Origin: Phormidium tenue FACHB-886
GTDB lineage: Bacteria > Cyanobacteriota > Cyanobacteriia > Elainellales > Elainellaceae
Length of the DNA: 64,000 nt
NCBI RefSeq assembly: GCF_014764505.1
Contig: NZ_JACXWX010000006.1
Location: 1-64,000 of the forward strand
Direction: 5' to 3'
The notes below the pieces were generated by a model. It did not search any database. It had not been told where the DNA came from and saw only the letters and a program-made list of their open reading frames with translations. Within the stretch, counting starts at the first letter, position 1, and the number at the start of each line of letters is the position of its first letter. This document shows positions 18,325-29,122 of this stretch, in pieces. The position numbers and the translations under genes are program-made.

Positions 18325-18714
18325 TTAAACCTCTACTTTGTAATTTAACTGGTGTTCATCGCCTGGTAAGCCCCGAAAGCCCCAGTTATGCTGAGGATTC
18401 TCAAAAAATGTCATCTCCAGATCTGCGGGTGGGATGCCAAACTCCTGCTGGAGGCGATCGAACAATAGCCGCATCAGCTGCTTCTTAGCCGCAACGCTGC
18501 GCCCTTCTATGAGGCTAAACTCCAAGATAGTGTAGCGATCGCTGCGTCCGGCTGGATAGAAGAAATCGGCGCGATCGAGCGGAAAGAACCGGTGAAAGCG
18601 CTTGTCTGCTGGATACTGAAAAGCTTCCATGACGCAAACGTGGATTACATCTGAGAGCAGCGGCTTGATGGGGTCGAGATGTTCTCTCAATCCGTAAATC
18701 TTGATTTGTACCAT
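18325..18714 (-). CDS. Tautomerase-family protein
   Basis: 129 residues resembling the tautomerase superfamily (PF14552-type), small beta-alpha-beta proteins in which an N-terminal proline often acts as base. Here the residue after Met is Val, and the usual Pro1 is absent, so catalysis by the classical mechanism is doubtful. Recognisable segments are MVQIKIYGLREHLDP, EGRSVAAKKQLMRLLFDRLQQEFGIPPADLEMTFFE, with the terminal WGFRGLPGDE. Members of this subgroup are widespread in bacteria with few functional data. It is monocistronic and convergent with the epimerase gene. Confidence 0.75.
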   Translation of the reverse strand: MVQIKIYGLREHLDPIKPLLSDVIHVCVMEAFQYPADKRFHRFFPLDRADFFYPAGRSDRYTILEFSLIEGRSVAAKKQLMRLLFDRLQQEFGIPPADLEMTFFENPQHNWGFRGLPGDEHQLNYKVEV

Positions 18715-18911
18715 GACATCTATCTTCCTAAACTTGCCAGCCGTTATTTTATTCCTTTCTTTTACAGCTGAATTCGCTGCCTTGAAGCAACTGAGTGCCA
18801 GACGAAGAAATTCTCAGAGCATTTCAAGGGGTAAATGGTTAGCTTTCTAAAAACTGCTTCAGTCAACGTTTTAAAATCGAGAAGAGCGTTCACGCAGATC
18901 GAGGATAAACG

Positions 18912-19895
18912 ATGGCAGATATCAAAGGTGGCTTTGTCGGCGCAGTAGGCAACACGCCGCTGATTCGGCTGAATAGCTTTAGCGAAGAAACTGGATGCAA
19001 CATCCTCGGCAAAGCAGAATTTCTCAATCCGGGTGGCTCTGTGAAAGACCGGGCAGCGCTATACATTATCCAGGAAGCCGAAGAAAAAGGCTTGCTGAAA
19101 CCAGGCGGCACGGTGGTAGAAGGCACAGCGGGCAATACGGGCATTGGGCTGGCGCATATCTGCAATGCCAAAGGCTACAAATGCCTGATTATCATCCCCG
19201 ATACGCAGTCTCAAGAAAAAATTGACCTGCTGCGGACGTTAGGGGCAGAAGTTCGAACTGTGCCTGCTGTGCCGTACAAAGACCCCAACAACTACGTGCG
19301 GCTGTCGGGTAGGGTGGCTGCCGAGCTGGACAACGCGATCTGGGCAAACCAGTTTGATAATTTGGCAAATCGTCACGCTCATTACGAGACGACGGGTGAG
19401 GAAATCTGGAACCAAACCGAGGGCAAAATAGACGCCTGGGTGGCTGCTACAGGTACCGGTGGAACCTATGCGGGGGTAGCGCTTTGCCTCAAAGAGAAGA
19501 ATCCTGACATCCGCTGCGTTTTGGCAGACCCGATGGGCAGCGCGCTCTATAGCTATGCCAAAACTGGTGAAATCCATATGGAGGGCAGTTCCATTACCGA
19601 GGGTATCGGCAACAGTCGCGTCACGGCCAATATGGAAGGAGTGCCGATCGACGATGCGATTCAAGTCCACGATCCAGAAGCAATTCGAGTCGTGTATCAG
19701 CTTCTCAAAAAAGATGGGCTGTTTATGGGTGGCTCAGTGGGAATTAACGTGGGGGCTGCTGTGGCGCTCGCCAAACAGCTGGGTCCCGGTCATACGATCG
19801 TCACGGTGCTGTGTGACGGTGGCGCTCGCTATCAGTCGCGGTTGTTTAACCCAGAGTGGCTGGCAGCTAAAGGGCTGTCGCCTGAGTCAGAATAA
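18912..19895 (+). CDS. cysK: Cysteine synthase-type PLP enzyme
   Basis: 327 residues of the O-acetylserine sulfhydrylase / beta-family PLP fold. The PLP lysine is in NPGGSVKDRAA, the substrate-binding loop is EGTAGNTGIGLA, and the phosphate cup is TGTGGTYAGVA. The enzyme condenses O-acetylserine with sulfide to make cysteine. The C-terminal VTVLCDGGARYQSRLFNPEWL is typical of a cyanobacterial CysK/CysM group that is somewhat shorter than classic CysM. Exact sulfur donor preference is not visible. The ATG follows GAGGA-like sequence. The ferredoxin-like frame begins only 27 nt after its stop, so the pair is probably cotranscribed. Confidence 0.92.
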   Translation: MADIKGGFVGAVGNTPLIRLNSFSEETGCNILGKAEFLNPGGSVKDRAALYIIQEAEEKGLLKPGGTVVEGTAGNTGIGLAHICNAKGYKCLIIIPDTQSQEKIDLLRTLGAEVRTVPAVPYKDPNNYVRLSGRVAAELDNAIWANQFDNLANRHAHYETTGEEIWNQTEGKIDAWVAATGTGGTYAGVALCLKEKNPDIRCVLADPMGSALYSYAKTGEIHMEGSSITEGIGNSRVTANMEGVPIDDAIQVHDPEAIRVVYQLLKKDGLFMGGSVGINVGAAVALAKQLGPGHTIVTVLCDGGARYQSRLFNPEWLAAKGLSPESE

Positions 19896-19921
19896 GAGGG
19901 TAGCGCTGTAAGGCTTGTCCT

Positions 19922-20194
19922 ACGTCTAGAACTGTTCTGATTTGTCAAAGCAAAGCCTGCCGCAAGGGCGGCGCTGCCAAAGTACTGGCAGCCTTTCGAT
20001 CGCACCCCTTACCCGAAGTTCAAGTCTGCGAAAGCGGCTGTTTGGGGCAGTGTGGCAATGGTCCGATGGTTGTGATCCTGCCGGAGCAAACTTGGTATAA
20101 CCGGGTCAATCCGCAAGAAGTTCCTGCTGTGGTCGATCGACATCTGCAAGGGGGAGAGCCAGTCCAGACAATGCTGTATCCCAAGTTTCACTGA
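19922..20194 (+). CDS. [2Fe-2S] thioredoxin-fold ferredoxin without a standard start codon
   Basis: 90 residues if read from ACG at 19922. The protein has the cysteine layout of thioredoxin-like [2Fe-2S] ferredoxins: LICQSKACRKGGAAKVLAAF at the start, then CESGCLGQCGNGPMVV in the middle and VPAVVDRHLQGGEPVQ before the ending MLYPKFH. Such proteins transfer single electrons. No ATG, GTG or TTG occurs in the frame between the TAG at 19901 and the conserved region. ACG 19922 would give the usual start (M)SRTVLICQ and has AAGG 8 nt upstream, so either a rare ACG start or a start-lost pseudogene (ATG to ACG) is likely. The coding frame is otherwise intact. It follows cysK closely. Confidence 0.8.
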   Translation, partial: TSRTVLICQSKACRKGGAAKVLAAFRSHPLPEVQVCESGCLGQCGNGPMVVILPEQTWYNRVNPQEVPAVVDRHLQGGEPVQTMLYPKFH

Positions 20195-20353
20195 TGGCGT
20201 TTGGTACTGATGACGTTCGGTAGCGGCGCGGATAGGACACCGCATGTGAGCTGTATCCTAGAATGCTTGCGTAACAGACTGTTACTACTTCCAAATAAGA
20301 ACCTTAAGTGGGATCGGGATTTGAGGGTTCCCGTGATACGGTGATCGCATTGC

Positions 20354-20440
20354 GGGGATGAGTGTCGTTTGACGGTTTGGTGTTGGATGCATAGGCGCAG
20401 CCCACCTCCATCATCCCACCCCAACATCAGAGACACTCCC
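20354..20440 (+). promoter_or_regulatory. Possible structured leader before terB
   Basis: Segments that can pair at distance occur here: GAGTGTC near 20360 with GACACTC near 20432, then GTGTTGG near 20379 with CCAACA near 20420. Together they could fold 20354-20440 into one branched hairpin some 50 nt before the terB start. No known riboswitch class is recognised; the pairing is by eye. Confidence 0.3.
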
Positions 20441-20487
20441 CACCATTGGGACTCAAATCACAAAGAGATCGTCTCGGAGATAGCACT

Positions 20488-20967
20488 ATGGTTCAAATCC
20501 CTCCTCCTCCCTCAATTACACCGCGCCAAATGAATTTGCTGCGACTGGTGACTGCCATGGCTTGGGCAGATGGTGATTTGGCGACAGAAGAAGTTGATAT
20601 CATGCTCGATCGCTTCAGCGGTATCTTTACCAAAGACGCAGCGCAACAGCAGCATTTGCGTCAAGAGCTACAAGATTACATGATGCAAAACATCCCGATC
20701 GAAGAAATCGCGCCCAAGCTGCAAGGCGCGGATGAAAAAGAGCTGGTGCTGCGGTTCGGCTATGAAGTGATCGTCTGTAGTTCGCGCACTCCCGAAGAAG
20801 CCAAAATCAATACTGAGGAAGCCGCCGCTTACCAGAAGCTGGTTCAACTGTTGGGATTGCCGCCAGAAACAGTGCAGCGCATCGAATCAGAAGCGCAGGC
20901 AGCCGGCGTGAATAGCGAAAACCTGATCGATCACCTGACCCAAGAGATCGAGAACTTCATGCACTGA
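20488..20967 (+). CDS. TerB-family protein
   Basis: 159 residues, all helical. The segment MNLLRLVTAMAWADGDLATEEVDIMLDRF is the hallmark of the TerB fold (acidic helix pair LAWADG-x-L-x-x-EE), first named for tellurite resistance and often linked to metal or membrane stress. A second half (about 80-155) repeats the helical layout and ends with LTQEIENFMH. No other ter genes are nearby, so a tellurite role is not implied. ATG 20488 has GGAG 9 nt upstream and is preferred over the in-frame TTG at 20446. A hairpin follows the stop. Confidence 0.82.
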   Translation: MVQIPPPPSITPRQMNLLRLVTAMAWADGDLATEEVDIMLDRFSGIFTKDAAQQQHLRQELQDYMMQNIPIEEIAPKLQGADEKELVLRFGYEVIVCSSRTPEEAKINTEEAAAYQKLVQLLGLPPETVQRIESEAQAAGVNSENLIDHLTQEIENFMH

Positions 20968-28064: not shown

Positions 28065-29042
28065 GTGAACTGTCTCGATTCTGAAAGACCCAAAATCCTT
28101 GTAGTAGATGATCACCCCTCCAGCCGCATGACTGCTGTCGCTATCTTGTCAGTAGAGGGATATGAAGTTTTAGAGGCTGAGAATGGTCAGGCAGCATTAG
28201 ACTGCGTAGCGTTCTCTGACCCCGATTTAATTTTGCTAGACGTCATGATGCCTGGAATGGACGGGTATGAAGTTTGCCGCTGTCTCAAGCAAGACGACCA
28301 GACTCGCCTGACACCCGTTGTTTTTGTGACTGCCCTTAACGATCGCCGCGCTCGGCTGAAGGGTATCGAAGCTGGGGGTGATGATTTTCTATCCAAGCCG
28401 TTTGACCAGCTAGAGCTTTCTGCGCGGGTGAAGTCCCTAATCCGACAAAAGCGGCTAAACGAAGACTTAGACCACGCCAGCAAAGTGTTATTTTCGATCG
28501 CCCGAACAATCGAGCGCCGCGACCCTAATACAGGTGACCACTGCGAGCGGCTCGTAAACCAAAGCAGAGCCTTTGGCGAATATCTGAAGCTCTCCCGCCT
28601 GGAGGTGCGCGACCTGATGTGGGGCAGCTATTTACATGACATCGGCAAAGTCGGCATTCCCGATCACGTACTCTTGAAGACTGGCAAGCTGACGCCGGAA
28701 GAATGGCAAATCATGCAGCAGCACGTCATTATTGGGGAGCAGATTTGCCAACCCCTGCGAACGATGCAAGGCGTACTGCCCATTATCCGCCATCATCACG
28801 AGCGTTGGGATGGTTCTGGCTATCCTGATGGTCTTGCGGGCGAGAATATTCCATTCTTGGCGCGAGTCTTTCAGCTCATCGATATCCACGATGCCCTCAC
28901 CCACGAACGCCCCTACAAACGCGCCTTTACTGCTGAAGAATCGCTTGATCTCATGTTTCAGGAGGTCGATCGCGGCTGGCGTAGCGCAGAGTTGATGCAG
29001 CTCTTTGCGACATTCGTTTGCTCTCAGGCTGCGGCTGCTTAA
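28065..29042 (+). CDS. Response regulator with HD-GYP output domain
   Basis: 325 residues. A receiver domain (about 9-125) carries the acidic pair in VVDDHPSS, the phospho-acceptor Asp in LILLDVMMPGMDGYEV and the lysine in LSKPFDQ. The output (about 140-320) is an HD-GYP phosphodiesterase with SYLHDIGKVGIPD (HD) and HHERWDGSGYPDGLAGE (GYP). The latter hydrolyses cyclic di-GMP, so phosphorylation likely controls second-messenger degradation (RpfG-like). Start codon is GTG (28065). No histidine kinase is adjacent, so the partner lies elsewhere. It precedes glmU by 80 nt. Confidence 0.92.
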   Translation: MNCLDSERPKILVVDDHPSSRMTAVAILSVEGYEVLEAENGQAALDCVAFSDPDLILLDVMMPGMDGYEVCRCLKQDDQTRLTPVVFVTALNDRRARLKGIEAGGDDFLSKPFDQLELSARVKSLIRQKRLNEDLDHASKVLFSIARTIERRDPNTGDHCERLVNQSRAFGEYLKLSRLEVRDLMWGSYLHDIGKVGIPDHVLLKTGKLTPEEWQIMQQHVIIGEQICQPLRTMQGVLPIIRHHHERWDGSGYPDGLAGENIPFLARVFQLIDIHDALTHERPYKRAFTAEESLDLMFQEVDRGWRSAELMQLFATFVCSQAAAA

Positions 29043-29122
29043 ACAATCAATGATGCGTTGCCCTCACCGAAAACCCACCCCACTCCCTGCTATACTCCGT
29101 TGGGAAGAGTGGATGACAAGGC

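Follow-up and report, generated by a model that had tools for sequence, protein, structure and literature searches.

Identity and setting of the gene

Why would an otherwise intact bacterial gene carry ACG at the place of its start codon? The question is raised by a ferredoxin-like frame in a 64,000-nucleotide stretch of the Phormidium tenue FACHB-886 genome (contig NZ_JACXWX010000006.1, positions 1 to 64,000), hereafter the window. An earlier note, made from these letters, had offered two answers, namely a rare ACG start or a fresh loss of the start codon. The gene, its location and the absence of a canonical start codon (ATG, GTG or TTG) are real in the sequence as given (Table 1).

Table 1. 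Features surrounding the start of the ferredoxin frame
Feature	Coordinates	Strand	Basis
cysK-type cysteine synthase A, upstream neighbour	18912..19895	+	NCBIfam NF007989, 554.9 bits vs cut-off 387
In-frame TAG closing the ferredoxin frame upstream	19901..19903	+	sequence
AAGG, weak Shine-Dalgarno-like 4-mer	19910..19913	+	8 nt before ACG
ACG at start-codon place	19922..19924	+	sequence and locus comparison
Thioredoxin-like [2Fe-2S] ferredoxin frame, 90 residues	19922..20194	+	PF01257; PDB matches 1f37, 7t2r_B, 7q4v_B

The frame is intact, as the earlier note had described: 90 codons (19922-20191) run without an internal stop to TGA at 20192-20194, and a score of 30.5 bits against a cut-off of 24.8 places the product in the PF01257 family. 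A PDB search matched the [2Fe-2S] ferredoxin 1f37, which we take to be that of Aquifex aeolicus, and hydrogenase B subunits in their N-terminal portions. Four cysteines are present (Cys8, Cys13, Cys40 and Cys44), presumably the cluster ligands; the last three align with cysteines of 1f37, and Cys8 aligns with a cysteine of the hydrogenase subunits 7t2r_B and 7q4v_B. The protein shares with 1f37 and other PF01257 ferredoxins a common sequence family, a GCxxxC motif and a conserved stretch around WY, V-P-V and HL. However, its first two cysteines are at a distance of only five residues; the hydrogenase subunits share this spacing, which we take to be wider in 1f37. A canonical start is missing as well. 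The protein is predicted to be a thioredoxin-like [2Fe-2S] ferredoxin of the cyanobacterial cysK-linked type. The 8.93-Mb genome holds, besides the window's own PF01257-type copy, one that is 48% identical and belongs to another clade, and two weaker matches.

The gene does follow cysK, which begins with ATG, but the gap is 26 nt and not the 27 nt given earlier, with the cysK stop TAA at 19893-19895. A fusion with cysK or a frameshift from it was considered and rejected: cysK lies in another frame and is closed by its own TAA, and the TAG at 19901 shuts the ferredoxin frame upstream. Neither a promoter-like site nor a plus-strand terminator-like site was predicted in 18600-20600. A search for structured RNA at the ferredoxin start gave a fold z-score of +1.1 and no Rfam match at the gathering threshold. 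In the predicted fold, an 11-pair stem joins the end of cysK to the ferredoxin start (19884-19943), but this fold is no better than those of shuffled sequences (z +1.1). Among the matches listed by a literature search on ferredoxin and cysK, none concerned this gene.

The start region

Between the TAG at 19901 and Cys8, the codons read CGC TGT AAG GCT TGT CCT ACG TCT AGA ACT GTT CTG ATT. The earlier claim that the frame contains no ATG, GTG or TTG applies from this stop through codon 40 inclusive. It fails further inside, where TTG 20042, ATG 20066, GTG 20072, GTG 20129 and ATG 20171 are in frame, all five after Cys8 and Cys13. The AAGG lies 8 nt upstream of the ACG, as had been reported, which makes the ACG the best-placed near-cognate codon. 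By itself, this placement is weak evidence. A Shine-Dalgarno 4-mer of the tested set occurs at a spacing of 5-11 nt before 9.4% of random positions, and before 51 of 194 ATG, 13 of 53 GTG and 6 of 74 TTG starts as modelled.

Perhaps the protein starts elsewhere. AAG 19910, CTG 19937 and ATT 19940 are the remaining near-cognates between the stop and Cys8, and TTG 20042 is the first in-frame canonical codon. However, AAG 19910 overlaps the Shine-Dalgarno sequence, and a 50-residue protein begun at TTG 20042 would lose Cys8 and Cys13. CTG and ATT stand only two codons and one codon before Cys8, whereas each of the 92 other best-match loci described below has a canonical codon no later than -6. 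We therefore regard a start at any of these four codons as very improbable.

Comparison with related loci

The comparison set comprised 102 related loci, which are the best matches of searches limited by number or by score and not all relatives. Anchoring on the conserved Cys-Gln retained 98 and dropped L004, L034, L039 and L094; removal of five duplicates then left 93 distinct loci. Only the window's copy lacks a canonical codon upstream of the fold among these 93, and the two dropped loci L034 and L039, which stand outside this count, also have canonical codons. This start-less state appears to exceed what chance would produce. Earlier, the ACG had been said to lie exactly where the family starts, and this holds only roughly: a canonical codon occupies its exact position in 4 of the 92 others (TTG in L010, which also has an earlier GTG; ATG in L019 and L024; GTG in L020), and 48 of the 92 have canonical codons only at least 15 codons before Cys8.

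Removing 17 rows that fall in another tree clade, together with L003 and L093, which are not in the tree, leaves an orthologue set of 74 loci. The cysK neighbourhood, whose comparison in relatives had been suggested, recurs only in part among these best matches. In 49 of the 74, the locus includes an upstream cysK match on the same strand; in nine, the window's copy among them, this match is no more than 60 nt from the codon that aligns with the ACG. Apart from the window's copy, all of the 74 have a canonical codon before the fold.

The nearest relative in the comparison, L005, comes from a genome of a different genus (G009), is 74% identical and has no cysK match in its locus. Its leader reads AGGG, 8 nt, TTG, where that of the window reads AAGG, 8 nt, ACG, and 11 of the 15 nucleotides before the two codons are identical. 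Agreement of at least 11 of 15 is reached at 6 of 39,742 plus-strand positions in 39.8 kb of G009, the L005 site counted, and at nine positions on both strands. When the leaders are instead aligned on the next conserved codon, AGA, flank agreement drops to 3 of 15, which would fit the gain or loss of one codon. Because its Shine-Dalgarno sequence and 8-nt spacer resemble those before the TTG of L005, the ACG probably marks the place of a former start codon, a reading that is supported but not proved. Two points count against deriving a start loss from this register, in that a MAFFT alignment of five leaders places its gaps differently and does not reproduce it, and L005 may start instead at a second TTG at -17, giving 101 aa. 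Moreover, a Shine-Dalgarno sequence kept in place is equally expected of an ACG start that is used.

Selection and distribution

Between the window and L005, dN is 0.166 and dS is 2.4 (saturated), and changes at codon positions 1, 2 and 3 number 17, 10 and 48 over 88 codons. Terminal branches measure 0.22 for the window and 0.19 for L005 in a tree built from few columns. As read from these substitutions, the values show long-term purifying selection on the ferredoxin. The dN/dS and branch lengths relative to L005 thus give no sign of a long relaxed period and point to constraint for much of the branch, and a loss late on the branch would leave no trace in either. Signs of a pseudogene, such as further disabling changes or relaxed selection, did not appear: the frame is intact and the branch does not clearly exceed that of L005 in length. 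An equally intact gene would be expected if the loss were very recent.

We also searched 36 genomes of the family, in which the window's own genome is the sole member of its genus. A match at E 1e-24 or better occurs in 22 of the 36, of which those in G007, G024 and G027 fall in the other clade; some orthologs score just under this threshold and several family genomes are incomplete. That an ortholog was not detected at this threshold in every family genome would speak for start loss, and it is a possibility that the gene is dispensable in the family. The ACG could also be old and conserved within the genus.

Other start-less frames in the genome

If the ACG were an error of the consensus, the true codon would be a canonical one such as ATG, in an ordinary gene. 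A single wrong base would account for everything, the same picture would be expected, the assembly is a draft of 255 contigs, and the anomaly is confined to this genome among the best-match loci. However, a scan for start loss in 291 kb of contig C212 and 500 kb of C1 (791 kb, score threshold 12) yielded 644 coding-like frames and no other convincing case, and random errors should rarely fall on a start codon. We hold such an error to be doubtful, though it deserves serious weight.

Five of the 644 frames lack an early canonical start, and the ferredoxin, which scores 16.8, is the only convincing case among them by inspection, with no homology test applied. Of the remaining four, two could begin at a plausible ATG that lies 20 or 29 codons into the modelled frame, and two are weak (12.1 and 15.2). 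A looser count gave 32 of 639 frames; in many of these a canonical codon occurs after 12 to 20 codons. Within the window, a weakly coding-like frame of 143 codons on the minus strand (28632-29063; score 15.2) has no early canonical start and may be spurious or a gene remnant. The initiation factor IF3 paralogue described below lies outside the scanned stretches, so at least one further start-less frame exists in this genome.

Two broader explanations were rejected. Widespread use of ACG starts is not borne out by five frames in 644. An initiator tRNA reading ACG was not found either: a pattern for the initiator arm, which sees only similar tRNAs, had a single match, and its anticodon is CAT.

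Possible initiation at ACG

Known bacterial start codons keep a central U (PMC4611024). In an IF3 survey of initiator tRNAs with changed anticodons, codon positions 1 and 2 accepted nothing but Watson-Crick pairs (PMC10158994). This rule is apparently not absolute, since fMet initiation at UUG, with its first-base mismatch, gave 55.8% full-length product in the same study, and the text of that study does not mention ACG. Because of the central-U rule (PMC4611024) and this limit at the first two positions (PMC10158994), ACG would be expected to initiate very weakly. Among 61,358 reconstructed AUG ancestors, the switches listed outside GUG and UUG were two to CUG and one to AUU (PMC5622118), although that survey uses annotated starts, among which ACG would scarcely figure. 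No natural bacterial ACG start was named among the matches listed for literature on bacterial ACG and cyanobacterial non-canonical starts.

It is also conceivable that the ACG is a functional start giving low translation, tolerated or selected, and held low by IF3 discrimination. The Shine-Dalgarno spacing and leader resemble those of L005, and everything else is intact and under selection. Furthermore, weak starts are retained in Staphylococcus aureus, where the AUU of cvfC1 and the AUA of ccpN are conserved and citZ has AUA in the NCTC 8325 lineage; the three tested weak starts reach about 10% of AUG activity in poor medium, and ccpN up to 30% in rich medium (PMC13009471). However, all of these codons retain the central U, which ACG lacks, and those that are conserved stand behind extended Shine-Dalgarno sequences, unlike AAGG. 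Each of the 92 other best-match loci has a canonical codon, and none shares ACG as its sole start. Behind a 4-nt Shine-Dalgarno sequence, ACG would be expected to initiate less well than these AUU and AUA starts. Like the ferredoxin ACG, the citZ AUA of NCTC 8325 derivatives is a weak start in one lineage of an otherwise ordinary gene, but it keeps the AU and has about 10% activity in poor medium (PMC13009471). On balance, a functional ACG start seems unlikely to us.

In chloroplasts, ACG-to-AUG editing of mRNA has been described, and in Chlamydomonas plastids the replacement of the petA start by ACG or other codons is reported to affect cytochrome f levels significantly (PMC9845219). An ACG in the place of AUG is common to the edited plastid codons and to the ferredoxin, and C-to-U editing as in plant plastids might by analogy restore its start. 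The genome gave no match to the DYW deaminase or PPR_2 profiles; control genomes likewise gave none. We know of no bacterial precedent for C-to-U editing of a start codon, and we give this idea almost no credence.

An apparently conserved non-canonical start in an IF3 paralogue

Starts of the infC type (AUU, AUC or AUA, controlled by IF3) are likewise non-canonical codons behind a normally spaced Shine-Dalgarno sequence. The ferredoxin ACG differs from them: it has no central U, its Shine-Dalgarno sequence is AAGG only and neither strong nor extended, and it is unshared, with no start-less copy among the 92 other best-match loci, which do not include congeners.

The same genome provides a contrasting case. 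A search for IF3 found three homologues, one of which is a divergent paralogue (C183:33019-33492; L148:1465-1968 and L164) with no canonical codon between the upstream stop and a conserved KQLINRQI motif, and with a Shine-Dalgarno sequence followed by ATT ATC. Its relatives are L153-L163 and L166-L195; 39 of the 42 loci could be parsed, and removal of five duplicates left 34, among which L186-L188 are near-copies. Canonical codons are absent between the upstream stop and the motif in 24 of the 34 (the other ten have TTG or GTG upstream) and absent within 12 codons of the motif in 29. ATC or ATT stands 4 to 10 codons before the motif in 31, mostly behind GAGG or AGGA, with L185 (ATA), L189 and L190 as exceptions; GAGG, often GAGGA, is the Shine-Dalgarno sequence in most parsed loci. 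Of 145 genomes taken as a sample of the class, 37 contain the paralogue at E 1e-60 or better.

From these alignments, the divergent paralogue apparently starts at a conserved AUU or AUC behind a Shine-Dalgarno sequence, which suggests that cyanobacteria have an accessory IF3 under self-control of the infC type. Nothing on this start appeared among the literature matches listed. It is conserved across many loci of the class, whereas the ferredoxin ACG has no such conservation.

Besides the standard IF3 on C223, the genome carries a second IF3 gene that is full-length and begins with ATG (L147:1192-1731, minus strand; C46:40185-40661). Two strong full-length IF3 matches occur in only one other of the 36 family genomes, G011. 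The second gene could be contamination or a real duplication.

Interpretation and implications

The comparison supports ACG as the place of a former start codon, and of the two answers in the earlier note we lean to start loss over a rare ACG start because the change is seen in one genome only, ACG breaks the central-U rule (PMC4611024) and the Shine-Dalgarno sequence has 4 nt. We give an even chance to a recent start-codon loss in an ordinary gene of this one genome, after which ACG would allow no more than trace initiation. A canonical start, probably ATG through one T-to-C change, would have been replaced by ACG in this lineage, with the Shine-Dalgarno sequence, spacer, 90 codons and cluster cysteines left intact. 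Because the rest of the gene is intact, the change is probably young compared with the gene's own history. Ribosomes might still load at AAGG, and any protein would begin with fMet at ACG at a trace rate. The outcome would be a start-loss or strongly hypomorphic allele whose protein is very weakly made or absent. That the ACG is true in the DNA, the direction and recency of the change and the low translation are all points that we infer.

It is tempting to speculate that the genus instead maintains ACG as a true start for deliberately low, IF3-sensitive ferredoxin synthesis; the genome encodes three IF3 homologues, of which one apparently uses a conserved AUU or AUC start itself. We judge this scenario quite improbable.

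The IF3 paralogue offers a practical test, in that real non-canonical starts should be conserved and have good Shine-Dalgarno sequences, and with the same methods the ferredoxin does not look like such a start. Proof that the ACG is used would contradict the central-U rule, since bacteria would then have a natural start codon with another base at its centre, and it would indicate a class of genes that annotation overlooks. As a start-loss allele, the ferredoxin gene would represent an ordinary step of gene decay, of use chiefly as a clean start mutation with all other signals in place.
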